DNA of 43,573 nt from a virus: positions 1-43,573 of the IMG/VR virus record IMGVR_UViG_3300046457_000390; one strand, 5' to 3'. A model generated the notes under the pieces. It saw only the letters and a list, made by a program, of their open reading frames with translations, was not told the DNA's origin and did not search any database. Within the stretch, counting starts at the first letter, position 1. Each line of letters starts with the position of its first letter. Below, piece by piece: positions 1,554 to 38,531 of this stretch. Made by a program: the position numbers and the translations under genes.

Positions 1554-1891
1554 CCTTACCTGACACCGACACCCTGCCGCACCCCGACACGCTGCGGCTA
1601 TTCACGGACCCCAACTACCGGCCGCCGTCGCCCGACGACGTGCGGGCCGTATGCAACCTGCTCGGGTATGGCCAGAAGCATGGCGCGAAGCGCATCGCCG
1701 GCGTCACGGGGATGAAGAACCGCCGGACAGTGCGCCGCTGGGTCGCCGCCGATACGGCGAATACCCAGGCGGAGATCGACTATGCCGCCTGGCGGCTGCT
1801 CCTGCTCGAGGCGGCACTGGTTGCGCCCCCGAAGCCCCGGCGGCGGCCCGCTCCCCTCTTGAGGCCGACTAAGGTAGCTAGGTCCAAGTGA
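1550..1891 (+). CDS. Helix-turn-helix DNA-binding protein
   Basis: A 113-residue protein if the coupled ATG at 1550 is used; an in-frame ATG at 1517 would add 11 residues inside the preceding gene. Residues about 25-65 ([31 protein letters not shown]) look like an XRE-type helix-turn-helix with a conserved recognition-helix TVRRWV. The C-terminus is a basic, Pro/Arg-rich tail. Such proteins in phages are usually transcriptional regulators. It lies directly upstream of SSB, with a TATAAT-like element at 1894-1899 just after its stop, so a local regulatory role is plausible. The target is unknown. Confidence 0.6.
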
Positions 1892-1893
1892 CC

Positions 1894-1960
1894 TATAATG
1901 GACTCAGCAGCAAGGACGACGGAATCCGGCCTGGCGGTCCCAGGACATTTCAAGCAGGAG
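1894..1960 (+). promoter_or_regulatory. Probable promoter/leader of ssb
   Basis: A perfect TATAAT lies at 1894-1899, 70 bases upstream of the SSB start. No convincing -35 is visible at the usual distance (AAGGTA at 1871-1876), so it may need an activator. AGGAG at 1956-1960 is the SSB ribosome-binding site. Confidence 0.4.
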
Positions 1961-1968
1961 TGAAAATT

Positions 1969-2451
1969 ATGGCATCCGTAAACAAGGTCATCATCGTCGG
2001 CAACCTCGGCCGCGACCCGGAAATCCGCTACATGCCGAGCGGCGACGCGATCGCCAACATCGCCGTGGCAACCTCGTACAAATCGAAGGACCGCAACTCG
2101 GGCGAGCAGAAAGAGCTGACCGAATGGCACCGTATCTCCTTCTTTGGCCGCCTGGCTGAAATCGTCAACCAGTACCTGAAAAAAGGTTCATCGGTCTACG
2201 TCGAGGGCCGCCTGCAGACCCGCAAGTACACCGACAAGGACGGCATCGAGCGCTACGCTACCGACATCATCGCTGAAAACATGCAGATGCTGGGCGGGCG
2301 CGCTGGCGGGCCTGACGTTGGCGGAGACGCTGGCTACGACGCACCGCCGAGCCGCCCGGCACCACGCCAGGCTCCGCCGGCACCGGCAGCCCGTCCGCAG
2401 CCGAAACCGGCGTCGAACTTCTCGGATATGGATGATGATATCCCGTTCTAG
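1969..2451 (+). CDS. ssb: Single-stranded DNA-binding protein
   Basis: A 160-residue SSB of the bacterial/phage type. Residues 1-110 form the OB fold, beginning [18 protein letters not shown], with the conserved [13 protein letters not shown] strand and the [16 protein letters not shown] segment. A Pro/Ala-rich linker follows and the chain ends in the acidic tip MDDDIPF, which in this family recruits replication and repair enzymes. The ATG at 1969 follows AGGAG by 8 bases; upstream in-frame codons are not needed. It would coat single-stranded DNA during phage replication and recombination, together with the exonuclease module at 12379-13609 and the O/P-like proteins at 20217-21894. Confidence 0.95.
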
Positions 2452-10136: not shown

Positions 10137-10562
10137 TCAGTGGTGCTGCTGAGCGCTGGTCGCGTCTTGCTGTTCCTTGAACCATCTTGGCATACGGCCT
10201 CGGCCATTCCAGATTTTTCCGTTCGGGCCGGTATGACGAATGTTGGACGGCGCCTGCGGTTTGCGGGTAATAGGCGCTTTGGGAGATTTCTGGGCACCGC
10301 GGGCCCCGCTCAGCCCTGCAAAGACTGCGGCAGGATCCAGCCCGGCATCCGCAATAATCTTCTGGATTTGCTCACGCGCAGCGCGCAGTTCTTGCTCCTC
10401 GGCTGCTTTGATATCGCGCTCGACATGCGAGATCGCAACTTTGCATTTCATTTCGAGCGTAGCTGAGTCTTCTCTGAACTTTCGTTCAAGTGCTTTCAGG
10501 TCGGCTTGAAGTTGGTTGCGCAAGTCTTCAATCTTTTCGCGGCGTTCCAGATTCGTTGTCAT
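10137..10562 (-). CDS. H-NS-like nucleoid protein
   Basis: A 141-residue protein with two clear parts. Residues 1-70 are a charged coiled coil (LERREKIEDLRNQLQADLK ... HVERDIKAAEEQELR). The C-terminus ends HTGPNGKIWNGRGRMPRWF, the hallmark of the H-NS DNA-binding domain of betaproteobacteria (W-x-GRGRxPRW, where the GRGR loop enters the minor groove of AT-rich DNA). H-NS proteins multimerise and silence AT-rich genes. AGGAA precedes the ATG. It is the first gene left of the AT-rich origin region, which could be both its promoter and its target. No other plausible assignment fits the C-terminal motif. Confidence 0.8.
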   Translation of the reverse strand: MTTNLERREKIEDLRNQLQADLKALERKFREDSATLEMKCKVAISHVERDIKAAEEQELRAAREQIQKIIADAGLDPAAVFAGLSGARGAQKSPKAPITRKPQAPSNIRHTGPNGKIWNGRGRMPRWFKEQQDATSAQQHH

Positions 10563-11284
10563 CTACATTTCCTGTGAATTATTGGCGCTCGTTCATCTTT
10601 CGACCAATGTGATTCTAACAGGCAGTTTTGAGCAATCGCAATCCTTTAGTTAAAAAAAATTTACGACCACTGTTGTTGAACACCGATTGGAAATGTCCTG
10701 CGCATAACTTGCATTATGTCAAATAGTTACTTCTGGCGAACCAAGGACGGGCCGAAACACCTTTTTTTTTAGGAAGGTAGGTCAATAAGCCGACGTCTGG
10801 AATTCACAAATAGAATAACAGGGTGCTGCCTAAAAGTAACGTGCTTGTGCGGTGCAGAAAGCTTGTCAGGATCACCAATGTGACGCTTTTGCATTGGTTG
10901 TTACTGAACAGGATCATTGTGGAATTATGCACTAAAAATGACCCACGCTTTTTAGGCGCTGTTACATGCCATCTGTCACTAAAAGTAGCTAATACTTGCT
11001 TCGGATACCTAAAACTCCCCGTATTCATGCGTATGCAAGGCCCATGGATTTAACAATCACCCCGTTTGCTTATATGCCGGGAAAGTTTGATGGGCGTTAG
11101 AAATTGAACGGGACGCTAAGGGGTTAAAGGTGGTTAAAAGCGGTTAACGCTGTGGATAGCTTCTGCAACTCTTTGATTACAAACCATTTTCCCGGCTGTG
11201 CTCGGTGTCGAATTTAGCGAAGGCGGTGTCAATATCAGCAAAAGCGTGTTCGTTTTTAGTGCCGCCGTGTGTCGTTTTTAGTTC
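10563..11284. other. AT-rich non-coding region, probable replication origin
   Basis: About 720 bases without a convincing gene and much richer in A+T than the rest. It holds repeated CTAAAA-core motifs at 10829-10843, 10930-10947, 10946-10966 (inverted), 10977-10992 and 11007-11020. Two longer copies, GTGTTCGTTTTTAG (11246-11259) and GTGTGTCGTTTTTAG (11267-11281), have a third copy at 11320-11334 inside the initiator gene. GGTTAA occurs at 11122, 11132 and 11142, exactly 10 bp apart. TGTGGATAG (11151-11159) is one base from a DnaA box. A T9 run lies at 10762. Next to a TrfA-like gene this is the layout of an iteron-type plasmid origin. Confidence 0.65.
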
Positions 11285-11334
11285 TTAACCGGGCTGCGGT
11301 GGGTCGCCTTGACCGTCTTGTGTGTCGTTTTTAG
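11246..11334. repeat. Iteron-like direct repeats
   Basis: Three direct copies of GTGTnnnCGTTTTTAG-type sequence lie at 11246-11259, 11267-11281 and 11320-11334; the last two are identical over 15 bases. On the minus strand they read CTAAAAACGACAC. The third copy encodes the AKNDTQ segment near the end of the initiator. Degenerate CTAAAA relatives continue to the left. They are likely binding sites for the initiator protein. Confidence 0.6.
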
Positions 11335-12310
11335 CAGGTCGCGTTACCCGCGCCAGCTTGGTGCCCTTGCGCGCTCCTGGCACGAGCGTGCCCGTTTCCA
11401 GCACGCCAACCCTCACCAGCTCGTCCAGGTAGCGCTGTATGGTCCGCACCTCTTCGCGTGGGCTGAGTTCCAGACCCACATACTGCGCCAGGCTGCTGAC
11501 GAGCACATCGTTCGGCTTGCGGTGGCTGGAGAAATAGCACTGCAGGCGGCGGGCGCCGGGGGATAACTCCTTCCGCGCTTCAAAATCCATGTGCGTCAGA
11601 TAGGCCTCGGCAAACAGCATCACCATCTTCTTGTTGAGCGTGACTTCCCATTGCAGATTACCCTGCGGGATATTGTCGATATCCGGGCCGGCATTGGTAA
11701 AAATCGGATCGCCGTCGATCAGGGACATCATGACGCCGGTGATCTTGTCGTCCGGCGTCAGCAGTTTCAGTGCCTCGCGGCGCTCGAATTCCATCAGTTC
11801 CGCGTACAAGCGGTGCAGGACTTCCGGTGCAGCGCCCTCCTCCCGCGCCCGTTCGCACGCCAGCGCCTTTGTCAGGCGCGCGGAAAACACGGTAATGACG
11901 CCGCCTTTCATGCGCTGGATGGACCGGTATATGTCGTTGTAATAAACCCGCGACTGGTGCCGCCCGGTCAGCCTGCAGATTTGGGCGTTGCTCAATTTAA
12001 TTGTCAGGCAGTCGATCGGCATCCGGCGCGCCGCATGGACCAGTGCCAGGAACACGTCTTCGTCCAGGCTACGCAATTCCTCGCCGGTATAGGTGACTTT
12101 GCCGTTGCCGAGCACGTACAGGCTTTCGTTGTCGAATAGGCGGCGCGGCTTGCGGGTGGAGCCGCAGCGGAACAGCGCGCAGCGCGCCAGCTCGTTGGCG
12201 ATGGCCCTGCGCTCGTCCGGCCAGAATGACAGCTGAACCGGCGTGTACTTGCGCATAAAGGCAGCGGCGGTGCGCTGCACGAGCGTGTCGGTTGTGGACT
12301 GCTTGATCAT
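11285..12310 (-). CDS. TrfA-like plasmid replication initiator
   Basis: A 341-residue protein resembling the TrfA/IncP-type initiators. It shows VQLSFWPDERRAIANELARCALF near residue 25, VTYTGEELRSLDEDVFLALVHAA near 70, a winged-helix segment, and ARRLQCYFSSHRKPNDVLVSSL near 265, matching the family order: FWP-ALF, YTGEEL, second winged helix with SH. Such proteins bind iterons, open the origin and load host helicase. ATG 12310 is chosen, but its ribosome-binding site is weak; in-frame GTG 12358 or TTG 12370 are alternatives. The gene ends at the iteron-like region, with one repeat inside the coding sequence, suggesting autoregulation or copy control. Confidence 0.8.
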   Translation of the reverse strand: MIKQSTTDTLVQRTAAAFMRKYTPVQLSFWPDERRAIANELARCALFRCGSTRKPRRLFDNESLYVLGNGKVTYTGEELRSLDEDVFLALVHAARRMPIDCLTIKLSNAQICRLTGRHQSRVYYNDIYRSIQRMKGGVITVFSARLTKALACERAREEGAAPEVLHRLYAELMEFERREALKLLTPDDKITGVMMSLIDGDPIFTNAGPDIDNIPQGNLQWEVTLNKKMVMLFAEAYLTHMDFEARKELSPGARRLQCYFSSHRKPNDVLVSSLAQYVGLELSPREEVRTIQRYLDELVRVGVLETGTLVPGARKGTKLARVTRPAKNDTQDGQGDPPQPG

Positions 12311-12378: not shown

Positions 12379-13119
12379 TTATGCCGCGGGCATCATGTTG
12401 TGCTGGCGGTAGATTCGTGCAACCAGCTCGTCCAGGTGGCGCCGGGCCGCTTCCACCTTGGTGACGATCTTGGACTCCAGCTCCATATCGCGCTGGTAGC
12501 GCACCACCGTCACCCGCAACGCCTCGTCAATATCGTCCATGTAATGCAGATCGGCCTGCTCGAAACGGACCAGTTCATCCGGCGTGTTGACGAGGCAGTA
12601 GGCCACGTCCCATTCTGGCACGTCCCACAGTTTCATGTAGCCGCGGCATTGCCACTCATAGAGTTTGTCGGCCCCGGCCTCGGCGGTGGCGGGAAACGTC
12701 GTTTTCGACCAGGACGATTTAATGTCGATTCCCTTCACCCCAGGAACGATAATGTCGCACTCACCCGTAATATGCTCGTCCGACAGGCGCACGGTATTCT
12801 TGCGGTGGTCGGTGAAGAACACGCTGTTATAAAGCTCGATCGCCTGGTCTTCCACGATCAGGCCCTTGTCCATGTATTTCGTGGAAACCGTCTCGTGATA
12901 GTTATAGACGAATTCCTTGGCCAGGGTTTCGAGGAAGGTTTTTGCGCCGGCCGACAGGCTTTTATCTTTCGCCGCCTGGAGCACGGCCTTTTCCTCGTCG
13001 GTGCGCGATTTTTTCTTCTGGATCGCGGCGATTTCCTCGGTCACGTGCTGCTCGTCGATCGACAGCGGATCAGTCATGATGAGGCCGAGCGACGAGCAGC
13101 GGAAACGGAAGTCATTCAT
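12379..13119 (-). CDS. YqaJ/lambda-exonuclease-like recombinase nuclease
   Basis: A 246-residue protein with the PD-(D/E)XK nuclease pattern: VEDQAIELY near residue 90 (the early Glu), GECDIIVPG near 120, IDIKSSWS near 131 (D-x-K), and YEWQCRGYMKLW near 153 with the conserved Gln. This order is that of YqaJ-like/alkaline exonucleases that degrade one strand from duplex ends for single-strand annealing. AGAGGA precedes ATG 13119, which overlaps the upstream stop by 8 bases. It acts with the conserved protein upstream and with SSB in phage recombination and end repair. Confidence 0.8.
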   Translation of the reverse strand: MNDFRFRCSSLGLIMTDPLSIDEQHVTEEIAAIQKKKSRTDEEKAVLQAAKDKSLSAGAKTFLETLAKEFVYNYHETVSTKYMDKGLIVEDQAIELYNSVFFTDHRKNTVRLSDEHITGECDIIVPGVKGIDIKSSWSKTTFPATAEAGADKLYEWQCRGYMKLWDVPEWDVAYCLVNTPDELVRFEQADLHYMDDIDEALRVTVVRYQRDMELESKIVTKVEAARRHLDELVARIYRQHNMMPAA

Positions 13120-13609
13120 GGGTCGGCGTCCTCTCAAAATCGGCCAGCTGCTCCAGCTGGGCCTCGGTCAGCGCGAAGCTGGCGCGCAGCTTCGCTACCG
13201 TGTAGCTGCCCGCCTTGATCTGTTCGAGCGCGCGCGCCAGGCGGTCGGCCCCGATGCCCTTCTTGGCCTCCGCCGGCACTGCCGGGCGGATCCGCAAGCA
13301 TTCCACCAGGTCGCCGCCGAGCCGCGCCGTGCTGCCGAACAGGGTGATGCGCTTGCCGGCCCATTCCTCGATGTAAGGACCGTACAGGCGCTGGATCGTC
13401 TTGCTGTTGGTTGCGTTCAGGATCATGGGCTTCTGGCCCTCCAGGTGCATGACGATGTGTTCTTCCTTCTTGCCGCCCGTGACCGTGACTTCCTCACGCC
13501 CCACGCGGGCGATCGTCACCACCAGGTCGTTCCCGTTCGGAAGGGCGTAGGCGCCGATGTAGCGCGGGTCCGCCAGCGCCTTCCAGTGCGTCAGCTTTTC
13601 CTCGCTCAC
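13112..13609 (-). CDS. Recombination-associated conserved phage protein
   Basis: A 165-residue protein starting at GTG 13609, overlapping the previous stop (GTGA). Marks are HWKALADPRYIGAYALPNG near residue 8, KKEEHIVMHLEGQKPMILN near 47, NSKTIQRLYGPYIEEWAGKRI near 68 and a C-terminal helix. This family recurs beside phage exonucleases and is probably single-stranded DNA-binding or an exonuclease partner with a beta-rich N-terminal fold; its reaction is not settled. Its position directly upstream of the nuclease supports a shared recombination role. Confidence 0.7.
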   Translation of the reverse strand: MSEEKLTHWKALADPRYIGAYALPNGNDLVVTIARVGREEVTVTGGKKEEHIVMHLEGQKPMILNATNSKTIQRLYGPYIEEWAGKRITLFGSTARLGGDLVECLRIRPAVPAEAKKGIGADRLARALEQIKAGSYTVAKLRASFALTEAQLEQLADFERTPTHE

Positions 13610-14897: not shown

Positions 14898-15326
14898 CTA
14901 TGCGCGGCGTAGCGCCGGCTGTTCCTTCCGGCCCGCAACGGCGAACGCGCTCTCGATGAGGCCGCGGGCAAGCGAGTCGGCGTCGCGCCACAGTGACAGC
15001 CACCCCATGGCCATGTCGACCTCGTCCTGGGGAAACTCCGCGAAGAGGTCGGCAGTCGGCAGCGCCTCCTGCTCCACCGGATCGTCGTGGGCGCCCTCGC
15101 CCGTCGCCAGCCAGTGCGGATTGACCTGGAGCGCGCGCGCCACCTCCGTGATCTTGCGAATCGTCTCGTTGCGCTCGGTTTCGGTATTGGCGATCACGCT
15201 ATACGTAACGCCAGCAAGTTCGGCAACTTCCCCCAGCGTAAGCCGCAGCCGTTTGCGCGCCCACTTGCACCGTTCGGCTAGTGCTTTTTTAGCCTTTGCG
15301 ACCTCTTCAATAGATTTGGCAACCAT
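14898..15326 (-). CDS. CI-like XRE-family repressor
   Basis: A 142-residue DNA-binding protein. Residues 20-80 form a Cro/CI-type helix-turn-helix: KWARKRLRLTLGEVAELAGV, then SVIANTETERNETIRKITEVARALQV, ending with NPHWLATGEG, a phrase typical of phage repressors. The C-terminal about 55 residues are acidic and helical; there is no LexA-type peptidase (no Ala-Gly cleavage site or Ser/Lys dyad), so induction is not by RecA self-cleavage. AGGAAA before ATG 15326 sets the start. Two operator pairs flank its region, consistent with control of both early promoters and of itself. Confidence 0.8.
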   Translation of the reverse strand: MVAKSIEEVAKAKKALAERCKWARKRLRLTLGEVAELAGVTYSVIANTETERNETIRKITEVARALQVNPHWLATGEGAHDDPVEQEALPTADLFAEFPQDEVDMAMGWLSLWRDADSLARGLIESAFAVAGRKEQPALRRA

Positions 15327-15388
15327 GGTCTTTCCTAAAAAACATCGATCAACGTGTCGTGGATTATAGACCGCAAGGAAAATATTTT

Positions 15389-15437
15389 CCGACATTTGTG
15401 ACTAGTTCTTGCAAACAAGTATCACGTATGTGACTAT
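15389..15437 (+). promoter_or_regulatory. Right early promoter with two repressor operators
   Basis: TTGCAA at 15409-15414 and GACTAT at 15432-15437 are 17 bases apart. ATCACGTATGTGAC (15421-15434) overlaps the spacer and -10, mirroring the left promoter. A weaker site, CCGACATTTGTGAC, lies at 15389-15402, 32 bases away centre to centre, and could act on the repressor promoter. It drives the rightward genes from 15539. Confidence 0.6.
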
Positions 15438-17669: not shown

Positions 17670-18134
17670 ATGCCCGCCCTCTACCTGGTCAAGTCCTCCG
17701 CCGCCGCGCTGGTCCCACTGGACCAGCCGACGATCGACTACATCGACCGCTGCCCGGAGGGGGCGGGGCTGCTGGCGTCCGTGAAGCAGTACAACTGCCC
17801 CGCTTTCCACCGCAAGATGTTCGCGTTGCTCCAGCACGCTTACGACGTGTGGGAGCCGCGCGACGTGCGCTACCGCGGCGAGCCGGTGCGCAAGAACTTC
17901 GAGGCTTTCCGCCGTGATCTGACCATCATGGCGGGCTTTGGCGACGTCTACGTGGACCTCGACGGGCGCCTGCGCCTAGTCGCACAGAGTCTCGACTTTT
18001 CCCGCATGAACCAGACCCAGCGCGAGGCGCTGTTCAGCGCCCTCGTGGACGTGGTGCTCACGCGGATCCTGACGAACTACACGCGCGCCGACCTGGATAA
18101 CGTGCTCGCGCAAACACTGGCATTTACTCGATGA
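17670..18134 (+). CDS. DUF1367-family phage protein
   Basis: A 154-residue protein of the DUF1367 type (phage early region, sometimes grouped with Nin proteins). Typical features are CPAFHRKMFALLQHAYDVW near residue 51 and NFEAFRRDLTIMAGFGDVYV near 82, then SLDFSRMNQTQREALFSALV with a basic helix. ATG 17670 starts right after the upstream gene; an earlier in-frame ATG at 17628 lies within that gene. The role of DUF1367 is not known; in lambdoid phages related genes sit in recombination/replication regions, as here. Confidence 0.8.
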   Translation: MPALYLVKSSAAALVPLDQPTIDYIDRCPEGAGLLASVKQYNCPAFHRKMFALLQHAYDVWEPRDVRYRGEPVRKNFEAFRRDLTIMAGFGDVYVDLDGRLRLVAQSLDFSRMNQTQREALFSALVDVVLTRILTNYTRADLDNVLAQTLAFTR

Positions 18135-19228
18135 ATGATTCCCTACTCCAGGGCGGTTTCGACTCGCTGGAAGAAATGTTTGCGCTCGTTGCCGAGGTCA
18201 ACGTCACCACGACGGCCAGGATGAAGGCGTTCGACCGCTGGAAGAGTGCGGACGGCACCAAAACCGGCCTCCTGAAGCTGCTCAAAAAGCAGAACGAACC
18301 TGTAGCCCCAGCCGCCGCCCAACCGGCGACCAAGGCGACCGGCCGCGACCCCTTCCGCATCACCTCCCGCACCGCCATCAGTTTCAGCGGCGGCCGCACC
18401 TCCGCCTACCTAGTGTGGCGCGTGCTGCAGTCCAACGGCGGAAAGCTCCCGCCAAACGTGGTTGTTCTGTTCGCCAACACCGGCAAGGAACGCGAAGAGA
18501 CGCTGCGCTTCGTCCGCGACTGCGCCGTGGCGTGGGGCATCGAGATCGTCTGGGTCGAGTACCGTGACAACCCGGACGGCTACGAGCGGGTGTCGTACGA
18601 CACTGCCAGCCGGGACGGGGAACCCTTCGAGGCCTTGATCCGTAAGCGCCGATACCTGCCGAACCCGGTGACGCGCTTCTGCACCAGCGAACTGAAAATC
18701 AGGACGATGCACAAGTACCTGCGCAGCCTGGGATGGCATGACGATGACGACGGGTGGGATCAGTTGATCGGCATCCGCGCCGACGAGCCGAGGCGCGTGG
18801 CCAAAATCCGCGCCCGCGGCACCAGTTCGGAAACCAGCAAGGAAATCATGTGCCTGCCCTTGGCCGAGGCCGGGATCACCAAGCACGACGTCGGCGCGTT
18901 CTGGCGTGCACAGCCCTTCGATCTCGAGCTGGCGAACATCAAGGGGACCACGCCGTGGGGCAACTGCGACCTGTGTTACCTGAAGGGGCCACGCCAGGTG
19001 ATGTCGATGATCCGCCTGGAGCCGCAGCGCGCGGTCTGGTGGGCGAAGCAGGAGCAGTGGGCATCCGACAACATCGACGGCCCGGCCAAAGGCGACGGCT
19101 GGCGGTTCCGTAACGACCGCCCGGGCTACCAGCGAATGCTCGACTACGCGACGAGCCAAGGCGAAATGCACACGGACGACATCGCCGTTTCCGCCGATGA
19201 GGCGATGTCATGCTTCTGCGGGGACTGA
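18131..19228 (+). CDS. PAPS-reductase-like ATP-pyrophosphatase
   Basis: A 365-residue protein. After a 75-residue N-terminal extension comes the PP-loop, TAISFSGGRTSAYLVWRVL, then VVVLFANTGKEREETLRFV, then LPNPVTRFCTSELKIRTMH, and a C-terminal CDLCYLKGPRQV plus CFC near the end. This is the phosphoadenosine-phosphosulfate reductase/adenylyl-sulfate family fold: SGGxTS binds ATP and the cysteines could carry sulfur or metal. In phages such proteins are thought to modify nucleic acid or support sulfur transfer, not sulfate assimilation; a DndC-like phosphorothioation role is possible but unproven. It overlaps the preceding stop by ATGA. Confidence 0.85.
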   Translation: MNDSLLQGGFDSLEEMFALVAEVNVTTTARMKAFDRWKSADGTKTGLLKLLKKQNEPVAPAAAQPATKATGRDPFRITSRTAISFSGGRTSAYLVWRVLQSNGGKLPPNVVVLFANTGKEREETLRFVRDCAVAWGIEIVWVEYRDNPDGYERVSYDTASRDGEPFEALIRKRRYLPNPVTRFCTSELKIRTMHKYLRSLGWHDDDDGWDQLIGIRADEPRRVAKIRARGTSSETSKEIMCLPLAEAGITKHDVGAFWRAQPFDLELANIKGTTPWGNCDLCYLKGPRQVMSMIRLEPQRAVWWAKQEQWASDNIDGPAKGDGWRFRNDRPGYQRMLDYATSQGEMHTDDIAVSADEAMSCFCGD

Positions 19229-19705: not shown

Positions 19706-20152
19706 ATGGGCCGCACCCTGCACCTGCTGCGCAAGCCAGAACCCGGCGCCCCCGACCTCGCCGCGATCAGGCGTGAAAAGGTGGGGCGGAAGGACGCCGA
19801 GGATCTGGAGCTGCGCGCCTACCTGTGCCTGGACGCCGCCAAGCGCTCGCGCTGCCCGATGGAGGCCTATCACTACCTGGCCACCGTCATCACCATGGCG
19901 GCCTACATCGGCCGGCGCTGCGGGATACCCGAGCTGGAGGGCGACGCCATCGAGGCGGGGCTCGCACTGAACCGCGCAGGCCTGCGCCCGACGCGCCTGC
20001 TGGACCTGACAACAGGTGAATACAAGTCGATCCGGCCAGTGCTGCGCCGCTACTTCGCGGTCCTGCCGGACCTGGAATTGGGCGTGCTGGACGACGCGCG
20101 CCGGCTGGCCGAGGCATTCCAGAAGGCGACCCAGACAGGCAAGCCCATATAA
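19706..20152 (+). CDS. Hypothetical phage early protein
   Basis: A 148-residue soluble protein. It has helices with DLELRAYLCLDAAKRSR near residue 32 and EGDAIEAGLALNRAGLRPTR near 78. Only one base separates it from the stop of the YbcO-type gene, so it is cotranscribed with the nin-like genes. A Cys-containing but not metal-like pattern is present (RSRCPMEAYHYL). No family is recognised; in several phages a similar small gene lies between the nuclease and the replication O gene. Confidence 0.6.
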   Translation: MGRTLHLLRKPEPGAPDLAAIRREKVGRKDAEDLELRAYLCLDAAKRSRCPMEAYHYLATVITMAAYIGRRCGIPELEGDAIEAGLALNRAGLRPTRLLDLTTGEYKSIRPVLRRYFAVLPDLELGVLDDARRLAEAFQKATQTGKPI

Positions 20153-20216
20153 ACAAGAGCGGTCGGTCCGGCAGCGGGCCAGCCTGAACCCCAAGAGACT
20201 ACCGAAGCTGAACGAC

Positions 20217-21188
20217 ATGAGCCGTTACCGAAAAATCGAAGTGCGGACCTGGTCCGACGACTCCTTCAAGGCCCTGACCCCGCTCCCACCCTGCGGCCAG
20301 GCGCTGTGGTTCTTTTTGCTGACCGGGCCGCACACTGGACCGATCCCCGGCCTGTACCGCGCCGGGCGCGCCGCCATGGCGGAGGAACTGAATTGGGACC
20401 TCGATGACTTCGACAAGGCGTTCAAGGAGTTGGTCGACCTGAGCATGGTCGTGGCCGAGTTCGGGTCCAAGTTGATTTGGCTGCCGAACGCGATCAAGCA
20501 TAACAAGCCGGAAAGCCCGAACGTGGTCCGGCACTGGCGCGTCGAGCTCGATCTGCTGCCGGAGTGCCCGTTGAAGCGCCGCGCACTGGACGAAATGCGC
20601 GCCGTGCTGATGGAAATCGGCCCCGCCTACGTGACGGCTTTCGATGAGGTGACTGGCGCGAAGGCTTTCCAGAAGCCTTCCGCGAAGCCTTTCCCTGAAG
20701 CCTTTCAGGAACCGTCTGGCGAATCAGGAACAGGAGCAGAAACAGAAGCAGCAGCAGAAGCAGGACAGAGCCCCGCACGCGCGCCCACGGACAGCGGCCT
20801 GCAGGCGGCGCGCACTGGAACCCAGCAGGCAACGCCGGCGGAGCTGTCCATTGCCATGCGCAAGCTGGGCGTCATGGCGCAGCCGGCCAATCCAATGCTG
20901 ATCGAGCTGGCCAGCCAGGGCGTGACCACCGACACCGTGCAAGCCGCGTGCGAAGTGGCCAAGGAGGCGCTTGGCCCGCACCAGCGGATCCCGCCGGCCT
21001 ACGTGATCAACATCATCCGGCGCTGGGCTGCGGAGGCCCGCGCGATCGACGTCGGAGGCGCCCAGCCGCCGAAGCGGGCATCACCAGGCGCGGGCAATGC
21101 GCGCGACACCTCGCGCATGGCGGCGGCGGCATCCATCGGACTCGGGAGCACGCATGGACGTGAGCACACGATCATCGACATCAACTGA
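20217..21188 (+). CDS. Replication protein O-like (replisome organiser)
   Basis: A 323-residue protein. It begins YRKIEVRTWSDDSFKALTP and contains LWFFLLTGPHTGPIPGLYRAG and a winged-helix stretch (EELNWDLDDFDKAFKELVDL, IWLPNAIKHNKPESPNV), the organisation of phage replisome organisers. A long Gln/Ala-rich linker (residues 150-220) is followed by a C-terminal DnaT/O-like domain (LSIAMRKLGVMAQPANP, VQAACEVAKEALGP, YVINIIRRW). It should bind the lytic origin and recruit the P-like protein and helicase. The coding sequence overlaps the next gene by 35 bases. Confidence 0.75.
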   Translation: MSRYRKIEVRTWSDDSFKALTPLPPCGQALWFFLLTGPHTGPIPGLYRAGRAAMAEELNWDLDDFDKAFKELVDLSMVVAEFGSKLIWLPNAIKHNKPESPNVVRHWRVELDLLPECPLKRRALDEMRAVLMEIGPAYVTAFDEVTGAKAFQKPSAKPFPEAFQEPSGESGTGAETEAAAEAGQSPARAPTDSGLQAARTGTQQATPAELSIAMRKLGVMAQPANPMLIELASQGVTTDTVQAACEVAKEALGPHQRIPPAYVINIIRRWAAEARAIDVGGAQPPKRASPGAGNARDTSRMAAAASIGLGSTHGREHTIIDIN

Positions 21189-21894
21189 CGCCGGCATCGA
21201 CTGGCTATTCGCGGAGCTGCACGGCATGTTCGGCAACAAGGTCCTTGACGCCTACCGCAGTGGGCATGTCGAGGGCGGCGTCGATACCGGCATCGAGAAC
21301 ATGAAACGCACCTGGCTGGAGCGGATCAGGGCGAACGGGATCACGCGCGGGCAACTGCGGCGCGGCCTGACGGCGTGCGAGCGGCTACGGTTCCCGCCCA
21401 CCTGGGGGGAATTCCTCGCCCTGTGCCAGCCCGAACCGGATCCGGTTGCGGCCTACCAGGAAGCGGTGGCGGGCCTTGAGGCGCGCGACCGGGGTGAAAT
21501 CGGGGAGTGGTCCCACCCGGCGGTCTATTGGGCGGCGTCCGGCCTGCGCCGGGAGCTGCAGCAGGAGGCCTACGGCTCCGTGCGCGAGCGCTGGCTGGCT
21601 GCCTTCAAACGCCAGATGGCGCGCGGGGCATGGGACCCGATACCGGAAGCGCATGTCGCCCTGCCGGCACCCGGGCAGGCCTTCACCTCGCGCGAGGCGG
21701 CTGCGAAGGCGCTGCGCGAGCTGGGCGCATCCGGCATCCTGCGTGCCCATGTTCCGCTGGGGCAGGGGCTGCGCTGGGTGGACAAGGTGCTGGCGCGCGC
21801 CGCCGCAGGCGATCCGACGCTGCCGGCCGCGTCGTTGCGTCTTGCGCGCGAGGCCAGGCCCGACGACGACGGCACCGACCCGCCCCAGGTGTAG
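21154..21894 (+). CDS. Replication protein P-like (helicase loader)
   Basis: A 246-residue protein. Residues 12-95 carry the P-like signature: WLFAELHGMFGNKVLDAYRSG, ENMKRTWLERIRANGITRGQ, CERLRFPPTWGEFLALCQPE. In lambda and relatives P binds the host DnaB helicase and delivers it to the O-bound origin. The C-terminal half is more variable and helical. ATG 21154 lies within the end of the O-like gene, so the pair is translated together. Confidence 0.85.
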   Translation: MDVSTRSSTSTDAGIDWLFAELHGMFGNKVLDAYRSGHVEGGVDTGIENMKRTWLERIRANGITRGQLRRGLTACERLRFPPTWGEFLALCQPEPDPVAAYQEAVAGLEARDRGEIGEWSHPAVYWAASGLRRELQQEAYGSVRERWLAAFKRQMARGAWDPIPEAHVALPAPGQAFTSREAAAKALRELGASGILRAHVPLGQGLRWVDKVLARAAAGDPTLPAASLRLAREARPDDDGTDPPQV

Positions 21895-26855: not shown

Positions 26856-27473
26856 ATGACAGAGACGAAGCGCAAGCAGGTCGATTGGGACCTGATCGAG
26901 CCGGATTGGCGGGCGAACGTCAAGTCCAAGCAGCAGTTGTCGCAGGAATACGGCGTGTCGCGTGCTGCCATGGACAAGCATTTCGGCAAGCTGGGGATCG
27001 TGCGCGACCTGGGCGAGAAGATACGCGCCAAGGCGGACGCGCTGGTTACACAGGCGGTGGTTACACGCCCGGTTACAGCCCAAACGACTGTAACCGAGCA
27101 GGAGATCATCGAAGGCAATGCGGTCCTGCAGGCCACGATCATCCAGTCGCAGCGCAAAGACATTTCCCGCTCGCGCCGACTCACCATGTCGCTGCTGGAC
27201 GAGCTGGAACACCAGACCGAGCACACCGAGCTGTATCGCCAGCTTGGTGAACTCCTCGCCGCTCCCGACGAACGTGGCCAGGACAAGCGCCTCGACCTGT
27301 TCATGAAGGCCATGTCGCTGCCCTCACGCACGACGACCATGAAGCAACTGGCCGACTCGCTGAAAGTGCTGATCGCCCTGGAGCGCGAGGCGTTCGGGAT
27401 CGACGCACGCCAGGAAGAAGGCAACGCCGGCATTGACGACGTGATCAGGCGCGTGAGGGACCGCGTTGGCTGA
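26856..27473 (+). CDS. Terminase small subunit
   Basis: A 205-residue protein. Residues 8-55 carry a DNA-binding segment (WDLIEPDWRANVKSKQQLSQ, EYGVSRAAMDKHFGKLGI). The rest is helical with a coiled-coil stretch and a C-terminal DDVIRRVRDRVG helix. It recognises the packaging site and feeds DNA to the large subunit, which starts inside its 3' end. It is the first late gene after the divergent RadC control region. Confidence 0.8.
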   Translation: MTETKRKQVDWDLIEPDWRANVKSKQQLSQEYGVSRAAMDKHFGKLGIVRDLGEKIRAKADALVTQAVVTRPVTAQTTVTEQEIIEGNAVLQATIIQSQRKDISRSRRLTMSLLDELEHQTEHTELYRQLGELLAAPDERGQDKRLDLFMKAMSLPSRTTTMKQLADSLKVLIALEREAFGIDARQEEGNAGIDDVIRRVRDRVG

Positions 27474-28983
27474 CCAGGTAGAACTCGACCGCACGTTGGC
27501 TGCCTTGATGGCCGACGTCGCACTGCACTGCGAAACCTGCATGTACGTGCTCGATAAGAACGGTCGTCTCGTTCCGCTGCGCTTCAACCGGGCGCAACGT
27601 CACATCCATGCGCAGATCGAGGACCAGCTACAGCGGACAGGAAAAGTTCGCGTGCTCATCCTTAAAGGAAGGCAGCAAGGAGCCAGCACTTATATTGGCG
27701 CACGGTTCTACTGCAAGTCGAGCACGACGCCGGGCCGTAGCGCATTTATCGTCGCCCACGAACAGAAAGCGACGGACAACCTTTTTCGGATGGTGAAGCG
27801 CTACCACGAACACAACCCGTTCGCGCCCAGCACTTCGGCCACCAATGCGAAGGAGCTGGTGTTCGGGAAGCTGGACGGCGGTTACAAGCTGGCCACGGCC
27901 GGCAGCAAAGACGTTGGCCGCTCCAACACTGCCCAGCTCTTACATAGTTCGGAGTTCGGCTTCTGGGACAACGCCGAGCTTCACCTGGCGGGCCTCGGTA
28001 ACACGATCTCCGACAATCCAGGTACCGAGATCGTCATCGAATCGACCGCCAACGGCCTTGGCAACAAGTTCCACGCGATGTGGCAGGACGCCGAGGCAGG
28101 CATTGGCGAGTACATCGCCATTTTTGTGCCCTGGTTCTGGCAGGACGAATACAGGTCGACCGTCAAACCAGGTTTCATCCTGTCCGCCGCCGACCAGCTC
28201 TACATGGACACGTACCAGCTGGACCTCTCGCAGATGGCGTGGAGGGCCAACAAGGTCCAGACCTACGGGCAGGGTTTTGAATGGTTGTTCGACCAGGAAT
28301 ACCCTGCGACGCCAAGCCTCGCGTTCCGCAGCGCGACCACGGACCCGCTGATTTCGCCCACCGCAGTGATGGCTGCCGTGAATGCGGACTACCGCGAGCG
28401 TAGCGGCGCCTTCGTCATTGGCTGCGATCCGGCCGAATACGGCGACGACCGCACGGCAGTCGTTTTCCGGCATGGCCGCACGGCCTACCGGATTGAGTAC
28501 CACTCCAAAAAGGGGCCGATGCAGGTCGCTGGCCTGCTGGCGGAGTACTGGCGCGAGTACCAGCCGGACGCCCTTTTCGTGGACAAGATTGGCATTGGAT
28601 CGGGCATCGTTGACCGCCTCAGGGAGCTCAATATCCCGGTCATTGGCGTGAACAGCGCCGTGCGGGCTGCCGACCCCGAACGCTACGCTAATAAACGCGC
28701 AGAGTGCTGGTTCAGGATGAAAGAGTGGATCGAGGACAGCCCGAACAGGCTGCCGAACGATGCAGCCCTGATCGCGGACCTGTCCGCGCCCAGCTACAAG
28801 TACAGCTCCAACGGCTCCAGGCTGGTGGAATCGAAAGACGACATGCGCAAGCGCCAGGTCAGATCGCCGGACGGTGCCGACGCCCTCGCCATGACCTTCG
28901 CGGAACCCGTCGTCCCGCGTGCCCTGCGCGACGAGCGCGGATCCGGCCCGACCCGCGTTGCCCCGAGCAGCGCCGGCTACTGA
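27466..28983 (+). CDS. Terminase large subunit
   Basis: A 505-residue packaging motor. The ATPase half has RFNRAQRHIHAQIEDQL, the Walker-A-like LKGRQQGASTYIGARF near residue 66, and LLHSSEFGFWDNAELHLAG as Walker B region. The nuclease half has FVIGCDPAEYGDDRTAVVFR near 309, DALFVDKIGIGSGIVDRL near 366 and SPDGADALAMTFAEP near 467, with the conserved acidic residues. TTG 27466 is used: TGAGGGA sits 6 bases upstream and the start overlaps the small-subunit stop. An ATG at 27508 would cut conserved N-terminal residues. It cuts and pumps DNA into the prohead through the portal at 29003. Confidence 0.92.
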   Translation: MADQVELDRTLAALMADVALHCETCMYVLDKNGRLVPLRFNRAQRHIHAQIEDQLQRTGKVRVLILKGRQQGASTYIGARFYCKSSTTPGRSAFIVAHEQKATDNLFRMVKRYHEHNPFAPSTSATNAKELVFGKLDGGYKLATAGSKDVGRSNTAQLLHSSEFGFWDNAELHLAGLGNTISDNPGTEIVIESTANGLGNKFHAMWQDAEAGIGEYIAIFVPWFWQDEYRSTVKPGFILSAADQLYMDTYQLDLSQMAWRANKVQTYGQGFEWLFDQEYPATPSLAFRSATTDPLISPTAVMAAVNADYRERSGAFVIGCDPAEYGDDRTAVVFRHGRTAYRIEYHSKKGPMQVAGLLAEYWREYQPDALFVDKIGIGSGIVDRLRELNIPVIGVNSAVRAADPERYANKRAECWFRMKEWIEDSPNRLPNDAALIADLSAPSYKYSSNGSRLVESKDDMRKRQVRSPDGADALAMTFAEPVVPRALRDERGSGPTRVAPSSAGY

Positions 28984-29002
28984 CCCCTTTCCAGATTACG
29001 TC

Positions 29003-31321
29003 ATGACGCAAACAGATCAGGCACCGCACCACGCGGAGCAGGAATACGTGCAGGCCGCCGCCGAGGGGATGGAGCGCGACGACGCCACCGCCTACACACA
29101 ACTGGACTCCCTCGGGTCCGTCCTGCTGGCGGAGTTCGGCCAGGCGGAAAACGCGCGAAAGGACACCGAGCAGCGGTGGTTGCGCGACCTGCGCCAGTAC
29201 CGCGGCATCTACGACCCGGAAGTGCTCGACCTGATCGGCAAGAACAGGTCGACGGCCTTCGTCCGCGCCACCCGCGTCAAGGTAAAAACCGTCGATGCGC
29301 GCGTGGCCGACTTGCTCTTCCCGAACGGCACGGAGCGCACCTGGACGGCGGACCCGACCCCGGTTCCCTCCATCGACCGCGCGACCAAGGCCCAGGTTGT
29401 CCAGGCCCTGCAGCAGGCCCTGCAACGCCAGCCGAACCCGCAGGAAGTGGATGCGGCCGTCAAGAAGCTGGTGGCGACGGCGGCTAAAGGGATGGTGCAG
29501 GTGATTGACGACCAGCTCTCGGAGGCCGACTACGCGAGCGTTGCGCGCCGCGTGCTGCACTCGGGGCACCTGTACGGCACCGGCGTGCTCAAAGCGCCCC
29601 TGGTGGAGCGCAAGAGCCGGTCGAAATTCGTCATCGAGCACGGCAAATGGACCATGAAGACGGAGTCCTACGTGGTCCCGTTCGTGGATCATGTCCCCCT
29701 CTGGCGGTGGTATCCCGATATGTCGGCCACCTCGCTGGACGAGTGCCGCTATGTGTACGAGCGTCACCTGATGACCCGCGCCAAGCTGTCCAGCCTTGCG
29801 AAAAAGAAGTCGTTCAAGAGCCAGATCATCCGCGACTACATCCTGACCAACCCCAAGGGCGCGCAGACGGCCCGGTACTTCGACAACGAAATCCGCACGA
29901 TTGGCGAGCGTCCAGGCGCGAACCAGAAGGATGACGGCTATTACGAGGTGCTGGAAAGGTGGGGATGGCTCGATGGCGAGATGCTGGCTACCGCCGGCGT
30001 CGAGGTCCCGCAAGAGCGCATGCACGAGACCTTTTTCGGCAACGTGTGGCTCCTGCCCTCGGGCGACGTCATCAAGGTGGCACTCCAGCCGATCAATGGC
30101 GTCACATGGCCCTACCACCTGTACTACGTGGACAAGGACGAGACGAGCATCTTCGGTGACGGCTTCCCGTCCATCATGCGCGACGACCAGGTGATGATCA
30201 ACGCTGCAACCCGCATGGTCCTCGATAACGGCGCCCTCGCCGCTGGCCCGCAGTTCGAGGTCAACATGGCCTTGCTCGGGCCGAACGAGCGCGCGGACGA
30301 CATGCATCCCTTCAAAATTTGGGCGAGGAACGGGCAGGAACCCGCTTCCCCGGCGGTGCGCGTGCTGACCATCCCGAACTCGCTTGAGTACCTGATGCCG
30401 GTGGTCGAAATGTTCAAGCACAACGCCGACGACGTGACCGCAATCCCCAGGTACATGCAGGGCGAAAACGCCACCACCGGCGCGGCTGGCACGGCATCCG
30501 GCATGTCGATGCTGCTCGCCTCGGCCTCCATCGTCATGAAGGATCTGTTGACCGCCTACGACGCGGTGACGCGCACGTTCGTGGAAAGCCTCTACAAGTG
30601 GAACATGCAATTCAACCCTGACAATTCGATCAAGGGTGATTTCAACATCAAGGCGCGCGGCGCGGCCTCGCTCATGGCCAAGGAATTGCGCGCCCAACAG
30701 CTCGACCAGTTCGCCACCACCCTCGCGCCCGAGGATGCGCCGTACATCAAGCGGGAAGAGCTGCTACGCCAGCGTGCCGAGGCGCACGACTTGTCCTCGA
30801 TTATCAAGACGGAGGAAGAGGTCCAGGCGGAACAGAACACCGACCAGGCGAAGCAGGCCGCCGCCATGGCCCAGCAGATGCAGGCGCTCCAGATGGAGAA
30901 CGCCCAGCTGGCAGTCAAGAAGACGGAGGCCGAGGTCGCGCGACTGGCGGCCGATGTCGAGCGCCTCCAGGCGATCGCCACCAAAACCAACGTCGACGCG
31001 GCGTACGCCGGGATGCAGGCTGGTGGCGTCGCTGCCTCCAATGGCGCGGTTGCCACGGCAGGCGATGCGGTGCTGCTCTCGGCTGGCTACATCGACCGCA
31101 CGCCCAAGGATGCGCCGAGCGACGGACCAGCGCCGACTAACGTGCCGATCGCGGCCGGCGCCCAGGCCGCACCAGGTAACGGGATCCCGCCCGGCCAGCC
31201 GATGCAACCGCCGGCGCCGCCGGTTGCCGGCCGCGATCCACAGGGCGGCGTGGTCGGGGCTGGTGTCGGCGAGGCGCACGGCATCGAGACAGCCCGTATG
31301 GACGGAGATCCGCAGGCATGA
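29003..31321 (+). CDS. P22-type portal protein
   Basis: A 772-residue portal, close to the length of P22 gp1-like portals. Typical segments: RWLRDLRQYRGIYDPEVLDL near residue 53, VKTVDARVADLLFPNG near 92, VLHSGHLYGTGVLKAPL near 182, FGDGFPSIMRDDQVMINAA near 383, then IPRYMQGENATTGAAGTASG near 486. A long Gln/Ala coiled coil (residues 600-680) precedes a Gly/Pro-rich tail. It forms the dodecameric portal ring. ATG 29003 lies within the palindromic sequence ATTACGTCATGACGCAAA, shared with the start of the gene at 3133. Confidence 0.9.
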   Translation: MTQTDQAPHHAEQEYVQAAAEGMERDDATAYTQLDSLGSVLLAEFGQAENARKDTEQRWLRDLRQYRGIYDPEVLDLIGKNRSTAFVRATRVKVKTVDARVADLLFPNGTERTWTADPTPVPSIDRATKAQVVQALQQALQRQPNPQEVDAAVKKLVATAAKGMVQVIDDQLSEADYASVARRVLHSGHLYGTGVLKAPLVERKSRSKFVIEHGKWTMKTESYVVPFVDHVPLWRWYPDMSATSLDECRYVYERHLMTRAKLSSLAKKKSFKSQIIRDYILTNPKGAQTARYFDNEIRTIGERPGANQKDDGYYEVLERWGWLDGEMLATAGVEVPQERMHETFFGNVWLLPSGDVIKVALQPINGVTWPYHLYYVDKDETSIFGDGFPSIMRDDQVMINAATRMVLDNGALAAGPQFEVNMALLGPNERADDMHPFKIWARNGQEPASPAVRVLTIPNSLEYLMPVVEMFKHNADDVTAIPRYMQGENATTGAAGTASGMSMLLASASIVMKDLLTAYDAVTRTFVESLYKWNMQFNPDNSIKGDFNIKARGAASLMAKELRAQQLDQFATTLAPEDAPYIKREELLRQRAEAHDLSSIIKTEEEVQAEQNTDQAKQAAAMAQQMQALQMENAQLAVKKTEAEVARLAADVERLQAIATKTNVDAAYAGMQAGGVAASNGAVATAGDAVLLSAGYIDRTPKDAPSDGPAPTNVPIAAGAQAAPGNGIPPGQPMQPPAPPVAGRDPQGGVVGAGVGEAHGIETARMDGDPQA

Positions 31322-32321: not shown

Positions 32322-32780
32322 ATGTCCTACGTCCCGCAAAACAGCCGCGTCCGGTCCACGTCGAGCACCAAGCGGCGCGACCAGAAAGTGGCCGCCATCA
32401 TCGCCGCACTGCGCGAAGGACCGATGCGGCGCGCCGACATCCGCGAAGCCCTCGACCTGAGTGGATCCGGCGTCAACAAGTACCTCGCACAGCTGTCAGA
32501 GGCGGGCGTGGTGGAAATCGCCCGCCGGATCAACCCGTCCAGCACCTCGCAAGGCACGGCTGTCTTCCGGCTCGTGCGCGACACGGACCGCGTGGACGAC
32601 TACCTGCGTTCGGTAGAGGCTGGCTCCGCGCTGCGGGAGAAGCCGAAGCAGCCACGGGCCGAGCGCCGCCTGCCGGACAATAGCCCGTTCCGCCAAGCAC
32701 CCCTGTTCAGCCGCATCCCGGCGCCGGACCCGGTACTGGCCCACTTCTTCGGCCTGACCCAGGCACGGGCGAGCGCATGA
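32322..32780 (+). CDS. Winged-helix protein next to methyltransferases
   Basis: A 152-residue protein. Residues 18-75 form an ArsR/MarR-like winged helix: QKVAAIIAALREGPMRRADI, REALDLSGSGVNKYLAQLSE, GVVEIARRINPS. It lies directly before the C5-methyltransferase and overlaps it by ATGA (32777-32780), so it may control or couple the methylase pair. It is similar in type to the regulator at 15539 but not closely related in sequence. The C-terminal half is Pro/Arg-rich. Target unknown. Confidence 0.65.
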   Translation: MSYVPQNSRVRSTSSTKRRDQKVAAIIAALREGPMRRADIREALDLSGSGVNKYLAQLSEAGVVEIARRINPSSTSQGTAVFRLVRDTDRVDDYLRSVEAGSALREKPKQPRAERRLPDNSPFRQAPLFSRIPAPDPVLAHFFGLTQARASA

Positions 32781-37225: not shown

Positions 37226-37526
37226 ACCCAATATGTCCCCACCCTCTGCGCCCGGCCCCGTGCCGCCAACGCACGGTGGGGATCTCTCGCAGCACACGCA
37301 CTACCTGCACCGCTGCTGTTCGCGCCTGAACAGACCCAAGCCGATCAACCCCACCGCCACCTCCCGGCCGGGAGCGACACGCCTACGGGCGCCGCCCACC
37401 CGCGCCGGGAACGCTTACGGGAAATCGTCAAGCACGCATCGAAGGACAGGCCTGTGCCCCCGACGAGCGTTCGCTGAATCGCTGACCAACCACCCCACCG
37501 ATTTACCGTTCACTCAAGGATACCCA
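37226..37526 (+). other. Long non-coding leader of the major capsid gene
   Basis: About 300 bases between the tRNA-like element and the capsid ATG. The capsid frame stays open back to 37233, but the encoded peptide is Pro/Arg/His-rich, unlike any capsid N-terminus, and AAGGA sits just before 37527. So this is probably a leader, promoter or decayed tRNA cluster. No sharp promoter or hairpin is clear. Confidence 0.45.
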
Positions 37527-38531
37527 ATGAGCGCTACCAACTACGGCGATATCTCGCCACGCACTGCCGCCTACGCGGAAAAAGAACTCCTGAAGAGGGC
37601 CATCCCCTTCATGGTCCTGGAAAAGTTCGGCCAGTCGAAGGCACTGCCGTCGAACAGCTCGAAAACCATCGTGTTCCGCCGCTACAACGCGCTGGACACC
37701 ACCCCTACCGCGCTGGCGGAAGGCGTGACCCCCGGCGCCCAGCAGATGACCGCGACGGACGTGCCCTGCCTGCTCACGCAGTACGGCGGCCTGATCCAGA
37801 TCAGCGACATCGTGATGGACACCCACGAGGACTCGGTACTCAACGAGGCCATCGAGCTGCTGGGCGAGCAGGCCGCGCAAATGGTCGAGCGCATGCGCTA
37901 CGGCATCCTGCGCGCCGGCACCAACGTGATCTACGCGAACGGCGCGACCCGCAACGCCGTGAACACCCCGATCACGCTGGCGACCCAGCGCAAAGTCACC
38001 AAGGCCTTGAAACGCCAGAACGCCGAGCAGATCACCAAGGTGGTCAAGAGCACCCCGGCGTGGGGCACCGAGGCGGTGGCCAAGTCGTTTATCGGCCTGA
38101 TCCACCCGGACCAGGAATCCGACATCCGCAACATGCTGGGCGCGGATGGCAAATCGGTGTTCGTGCCGGTCGAGAAGTATGGCAGCCTCGTGCCGTACGA
38201 GAACGAAATCGGCAAGGTTGAGGACGTCAGATACTTGTCCTCGACCATCTTCGAGCCGTTCCTGAACTCGGGCGGCGCCAAGGGCCTGATGACCTCCGCC
38301 ACCGGCGGCGCGAACGCGGATGTCTATAGCACCCTTTATATCGCGCAAAATGCCTACGGCATTGTTGCCCTCAAGGGCATGTTCGCGCTCACCCCCATGG
38401 TGGTCAACCCCAAGCCGAGCTCGGCTGATCCGCTGGCGCAGCGTGGTTTTGCCGGCTGGAAAACTCTCCAAAGCGCGGTCGTGCTCAATGACGCATGGAT
38501 GTGCCGCTTGGAAAGTGCAGTGACCGCCTAA
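37527..38531 (+). CDS. Major capsid protein, N4-gp56 family
   Basis: A 334-residue protein. Family marks: YAEKELLKRAIPFMVLEKFG near residue 16, SSKTIVFRRYNALDTTPTAL then AEGVTPGAQQM, LLTQYGGLIQISDIVMDTHE near 86, and a C-terminal NAYGIVALKGMFALTPMVV segment. This is the N4-gp56-type HK97-fold capsid protein that forms the head shell. ATG 37527 follows AAGGATACCCA. It is the main product of the late operon, and the strong hairpin after it may set its transcript level. Confidence 0.92.
   Translation: MSATNYGDISPRTAAYAEKELLKRAIPFMVLEKFGQSKALPSNSSKTIVFRRYNALDTTPTALAEGVTPGAQQMTATDVPCLLTQYGGLIQISDIVMDTHEDSVLNEAIELLGEQAAQMVERMRYGILRAGTNVIYANGATRNAVNTPITLATQRKVTKALKRQNAEQITKVVKSTPAWGTEAVAKSFIGLIHPDQESDIRNMLGADGKSVFVPVEKYGSLVPYENEIGKVEDVRYLSSTIFEPFLNSGGAKGLMTSATGGANADVYSTLYIAQNAYGIVALKGMFALTPMVVNPKPSSADPLAQRGFAGWKTLQSAVVLNDAWMCRLESAVTA

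Follow-up and report, generated by a model that had tools for sequence, protein, structure and literature searches.

Gene content of the window

The DNA analyzed here (the window) corresponds to a 43,573-base IMG/VR virus record and is a fragment without closed ends. It combines virion genes with plasmid replication genes, i.e., the combination by which phage-plasmids are recognized. Positions 19706-43573 (23.9 kb) are the same, at 99.99% identity (3 bases differ), as the end of a second record (G001; 59 kb); the window and G001 thus represent approx. 78.8 kb of one phage. A collinear relative (G002; 70 kb) shows approx. 70-90% nucleotide identity over the matched stretches, and both window plus G001 and G002 have an uncovered gap after the gene for a giant protein. 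An open frame of giant size (5,883 aa; G001:1-17652; L089) lies at the contig end of G001, and its product has a relative in the PLxRFG giant protein encoded by a Massilia phage-plasmid. As the window is a metagenomic contig with ends that are not closed, it could in principle be chimeric, or derive from a degenerate plasmid that retains pieces of a phage; we consider this extremely improbable, as the independent contig G002 is collinear with the window across both trfA and phage genes, the overlap with G001 is nearly perfect, and the window has intact genes for terminase, portal and capsid.

Features of the locus and of the surrounding phage genome are listed in Table 1. The large terminase and the portal protein are 76% and 66% identical, respectively, to their counterparts on the Massilia phage-plasmid. 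Two DNA methyltransferase genes lie amid the structural genes (32777-36141), with the DNA of the first methyltransferase region approx. 68-73% identical to phages of several host genera, and a PAPS-reductase-like protein is encoded in the early region (18131-19228). When the left part of the window was compared to plasmids by megablast, only a weak ssb match was found.

The O- and P-like lytic replication genes reported in the first-pass annotation were recovered with strong matches to PHROG profiles. Tandem repeats of 12-24 bp within the O-like gene (20657-20763) represent a candidate lytic origin; the O gene of phage lambda likewise holds tandem repeats. A different array, with 17/22-bp repeats, is located inside an HTH_36 gene of the Massilia relative (L105:30228-30332). 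The presence of a CI-like repressor suggests a temperate lifestyle.

The origin is flanked by a gene for an H-NS-like protein, upstream of which we observed a near-palindromic sequence (GCATAACTTGCATTATGTCAAATAGTTA; 10702-10730) that is conserved in G002 and may represent an operator. On its other side lies trfA, preceded upstream by a phage exonuclease gene. G002 has, between trfA and the exonuclease gene, an extra HTH_36-like gene (268 aa; L088:4536-5342, minus strand), which is missing from the window and whose product resembles a second replication protein of plasmid type.

Table 1. Features of the origin region and of the surrounding phage genome (window coordinates)
Feature	Position	Strand	Basis or remark
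H-NS-like protein	10137..10562	-	PF00816, E = 3e-6
A+T-rich flank; dispersed CTAAAA motifs, most of them not conserved	10563..11121	.	Composition; G002 alignment
Inverted iteron copy	10932..10951	-	20 bp identical in G002; alignment and iteron scan
GGTTAA triplet with 10-bp steps; putative DNA unwinding element	11122..11147	+	Starts 11122, 11132, 11142
DnaA-box-like site TGTGGATAG	11151..11159	+	52 bp before first iteron
Six-iteron array, core GTGTGTCGTTTTTAG	11203..11334	+	Starts 11203, 11224, 11245, 11267, 11299, 11320
trfA, TrfA-type plasmid replication initiator (341 aa)	11285..12310	-	Pfam PF07042
Phage exonuclease (phrog_5715)	12379..13137	-	Common to G432 and G433
CI-like repressor (HTH_3)	14898..15395	-	Domain match
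O-like/DnaD-like replication protein	20016..21188	+	phrog_1701, E = 2.7e-14
Lambda P-like helicase loader	21097..21894	+	phrog_109, E = 2.5e-23; PF06992
Small terminase (26856), large terminase (27466), portal/head-tail adaptor (28919)	26856..31321	+	Massilia homologues
Major capsid protein	37233..38531	+	phrog_1357, E = 6e-56

Organization of the origin

The description of an A+T-rich gap with repeated CTAAAA motifs beside trfA proved correct. The GC content over positions 10563-11340 was 44%, as compared to 64% for the whole window, and CTAAAA (on either strand) occurred 9 times in this region against 0.87 expected, a number that was reached in none of 2000 dinucleotide shuffles; the entire window contains 11 copies. 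A second iteron array formed by the CTAAAA copies left of position 11100 was considered and rejected, as this scatter is mostly not conserved. Alignment of G002 with the window showed conservation of the GGTTAA triplet, the DnaA box and the iterons; of the dispersed CTAAAA motifs that lie beyond the GGTTAA repeats as seen from the iterons, the inverted iteron alone was clearly conserved.

The three GGTTAA hexamers and the DnaA-box-like site were likewise found where the first-pass annotation had placed them. No spaced GGTTAA triple occurred in 2000 shuffles, and the DnaA-box-like site, which differs by one base from a perfect box, is the sole DnaA box of the origin. The two identical 15-bp repeats previously noted are indeed present (exact copies of GTGTGTCGTTTTTAG start at 11267 and 11320, and an imperfect one at 11245), but the array comprises six iterons rather than three; three of the six are degenerate and recognizable only through comparison with relatives. 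Spacings of 21, 21, 22, 32 and 21 bp hold the iterons on one helical face, the 32-bp step adding roughly one further turn. The last two iterons sit inside the 3' end of trfA, as is also the case in two further TrfA phage contigs (G031 and G433), and the iteron DNA thus also codes for the tail of TrfA.

The geometry of the array was tested with the six-site array of G031 as the template; G031 shows no protein match to the window other than TrfA. The best site for this template was position 11203, with 64 matches; the maxima in shuffled sequence were 52 (region, 2000 shuffles) and 54 (window, 50 shuffles). The geometry of the origin is not due to chance. Overall, the region shows the layout of an iteron-type origin, with direct repeats in phase, A+T-rich repeats and a DnaA box that adjoin a rep gene, and is, as judged by its sequence elements, a complete plasmid-type origin beside a matching TrfA initiator.

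Identity and phylogeny of the initiator

TrfA is the model initiator of broad-host-range plasmids. The product of the gene at 11285-12310 matched the PF07042 (TrfA) profile with E = 4.4e-17 and 62.5 bits, against a curated cut-off of 22. The profile search that the first-pass annotation had proposed for its TrfA-like initiator hence identified a replication-initiator family, and by this match the product is a TrfA-type initiator. It also matched PHROG family 26900, for which no function is assigned, indicating that phage relatives without a name exist. A search of the PDB sequences with the TrfA profile yielded no match. A structure model built from only four sequences was of low confidence (pLDDT 56); with this model, the best Foldseek matches in the PDB were the iteron initiators RctB, TrfA (9a0w), pi and RepE, the last three of which have solved structures with two winged helices. 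Residues 26-30 (QLSFW) resemble the beta-clamp binding motif known from the TrfA of RK2, and the pattern QL/QM-x-F/L-W is present in most homologues, with the exception of those of G432 and G433.

The TrfA of the window is 84% identical to that of G002 and 65% identical to that of G031, and among plasmid proteins the nearest (45%) is a TrfA encoded by an 89-kb plasmid of Herbaspirillum huttiense. Phylogenetic analysis placed the TrfAs of five phage contigs (the window, G002, G031, G432 and G433) and of two Herbaspirillum replicons in a single clade (support 98/97), outside of which the TrfAs of IncP (pYS1), Burkholderia glumae and pLAsvaD-1 fell. The initiator/iteron pair, for which novelty had been suggested, therefore falls, as a divergent representative, within a TrfA clade known from Herbaspirillum plasmids and is not a wholly new kind, while the iteron sequence is new.

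For the single-stranded DNA-binding protein SSB (window 1888-2451; L117:1203-1637), we observed 89% identity between the window phage and G432, as compared to only about 42-45% for their TrfAs, suggesting recent exchange between phage-plasmids.

A shared frame with differing iterons

All five TrfA phage contigs, some of which are only distantly related, share a spacing of 21-21-21(22)-32 bp over the first four steps as well as the distance of 52 bp between DnaA box and first iteron. The complete spacing of the window recurs in G002 and G031, and G432 and G433 share the first four steps. The iterons themselves differ, i.e., GTGTGTCGTTTTTAG in the window and G002, GGTGGATCGTTTTGAG in G031, GGTGTGTCGATTCATG in G432 and GTGGGTCAGTTTCACC in G433. 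A scan of 2.9 million viral contigs for the GGTTAA/DnaA motif only, without a protein query, yielded four matches, three of which (G031, G432 and G433) also carry TrfA; G432 and G433 were found through this DNA motif alone. The fourth match (L109) is a repeat array without TrfA and was rejected as a chance match. A scan of the viral contigs with the single TrfA sequence gave no match, while an alignment-based TrfA query found G002 and G031. The plasmid pLAsvaD-1 carries a triple TTTAACC and a DnaA box near trfA. The cumulative GC skew of G031 gave no informative signal.

We see an even chance that these phages form a guild of phage-plasmids whose hosts are probably Oxalobacteraceae, and in which a common frame (GGTTAA triplet, DnaA box, 52 bp, 21-21-21-32) would move between otherwise unrelated phages and initiator and iterons would have co-diversified into separate compatibility groups. 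A fixed frame with iteron sequences that differ between phages is also what incompatibility-driven divergence would give if TrfA and the iterons served mainly for incompatibility or superinfection exclusion against other TrfA plasmids and phages, and not as a maintenance replicon. We regard such a function as very unlikely, since an intact initiator with a full origin, including unwinding repeats, a DnaA box and six phased iterons, exceeds what a decoy would need. With five contigs, a fixed frame and four iteron words, initiator-iteron specificity and incompatibility could be tested by comparing natural origins, and the GGTTAA/DnaA motif provides a simple DNA handle for finding further phages of this type.

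Maintenance, partition and host

Consistent with the earlier report of no visible integrase, neither a tyrosine nor a serine recombinase was found in the window and G001 (approx. 78.8 kb together) or in the 70 kb of G002. Integration of the phage into the chromosome, with trfA and its origin as passengers or used in lytic growth only, would be compatible with the presence of a tyrosine recombinase in about half (15/30) of the terminase relatives; moreover, both IMG records of the window phage are incomplete, so that an integrase could sit in the missing stretch. However, in several relatives and on the Massilia plasmid the recombinase gene is located near ParB/ParA, which fits a role in plasmid dimer resolution, and the window phage has separate O/P lytic genes. 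Together with the absence of an integrase from the sequence recovered, these observations make chromosomal integration unlikely. A plasmid-type origin with a matching TrfA suggests that the window phage is most likely kept as a plasmid.

ParA/ParB were not found in the recovered sequence of window plus G001 or of G002, both of which are incomplete. Among 28 terminase relatives, 8 encode a ParA-type ATPase and 6 encode ParB, and three of the five TrfA phages (G031, G432 and G433) carry ParA/ParB. G031 is 111.6 kb long with 127-base identical ends and encodes ParA, two ParB-like proteins and one tyrosine recombinase; G432 and G433 have capsid or terminase genes alongside ParA/ParB. The morphogenesis module of the window phage is also present on an 87,120-bp circular plasmid of Massilia violaceinigra (NZ_CP024609.1). 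The circular Massilia relative and the ParA/ParB of relatives make the phage-plasmid reading strong by kinship.

No host genome with the window prophage was found. Among 399 genomes of the order to which Herbaspirillum belongs, TrfA was detected only in Herbaspirillum RV1423, and the terminase, for which the search had no positive control, in none. As the Massilia and Herbaspirillum relatives both belong to the Oxalobacteraceae, this family probably includes the host of the window phage.

Proposed model of replication

We conclude that the locus very probably serves as plasmid replicon for a temperate phage-plasmid, the host of which probably belongs to the Oxalobacteraceae; the phage has lambda O/P-like lytic genes in addition to its TrfA/iteron origin. 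The proposal of a phage-plasmid with two replication systems is supported by profile matches, conserved synteny and a relative from the same phage family that exists as a closed circular plasmid. In the plasmid RK2, TrfA bound to the iterons acts with DnaA to open A+T-rich repeats, and TrfA recruits the clamp (PMC4081077, PMC4980987). By analogy with RK2, the origin described here should fire from the GGTTAA repeats. During lysogeny, TrfA would bind the six iterons in helical phase while host DnaA would occupy the box 52 bp from the first iteron, and the two proteins would jointly open the GGTTAA triplet. This would be followed by loading of the host helicase and by theta replication, which would maintain the phage genome as a low-copy circle. 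Upon induction, relief of the CI-like repressor would allow the O/P-like genes to drive lytic replication, probably starting from the repeats inside the O-like gene.

Comparison with known systems

The terminase, portal, capsid and further structural genes of the Massilia violaceinigra plasmid are collinear with those of the window and mostly 44-76% identical; unlike the recovered window phage, this plasmid carries ParA/ParB, a KfrA-like protein and two recombinases, and it has no TrfA. G031, with TrfA, a window-type origin and ParA/ParB, has a portal protein 63% identical to that of Acinetobacter phage-plasmids of approx. 107-114 kb; by their size and gene content, the large Acinetobacter and Enterobacteriaceae phage-plasmids linked through G031 are SSU5-like. 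Among 50,697 records of an annotated phage collection, none gave a convincing TrfA match, and no description of a TrfA phage-plasmid replicon was found in the literature searched, one key survey of phage-plasmid groups lying outside this search. A TrfA plasmid of Burkholderia glumae was rejected as a precedent, as its first 50 kb have no annotated phage structural genes.

RK2 and other IncP-1 plasmids resemble the window in the TrfA family and in the cooperation of iterons, DnaA boxes and A+T-rich repeats (PMC4081077, PMC4980987). RK2 has, however, four 13-mers with the consensus TAAACnTTnTTTT (PMC4081077) and four DnaA boxes, as compared to three GGTTAA repeats and one DnaA box in the window. 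The TrfA of IncP (pYS1) is approx. 25% identical to that of the window, in which the linker that separates the two conserved TrfA regions is longer than in IncP-1 TrfA. Given these differences in 13-mers and DnaA boxes and the separate clade of IncP TrfA, the replicon of the window is not IncP-1.

The closest likeness is to the H. huttiense plasmid (NZ_CP103873.1) and the Herbaspirillum RV1423 contig, the TrfAs of which are 45-48% identical to that of the window. In both, the GGTTAA/DnaA element adjoins trfA, in the same order as in the window (3' end of trfA, iterons, DnaA box, GGTTAA repeats). The H. huttiense plasmid differs in having conjugative-type plasmid genes and no annotated phage structural genes. 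Its iteron core, AGTCATTTTGAGT, occurs in both orientations with other spacing and differs from that of the window; Herbaspirillum plasmid iterons carry a TTTTGAG core. As compared to these systems, what is new is the occurrence in a phage, the sequence of the iterons and the combination of a rigid frame with variable iterons.
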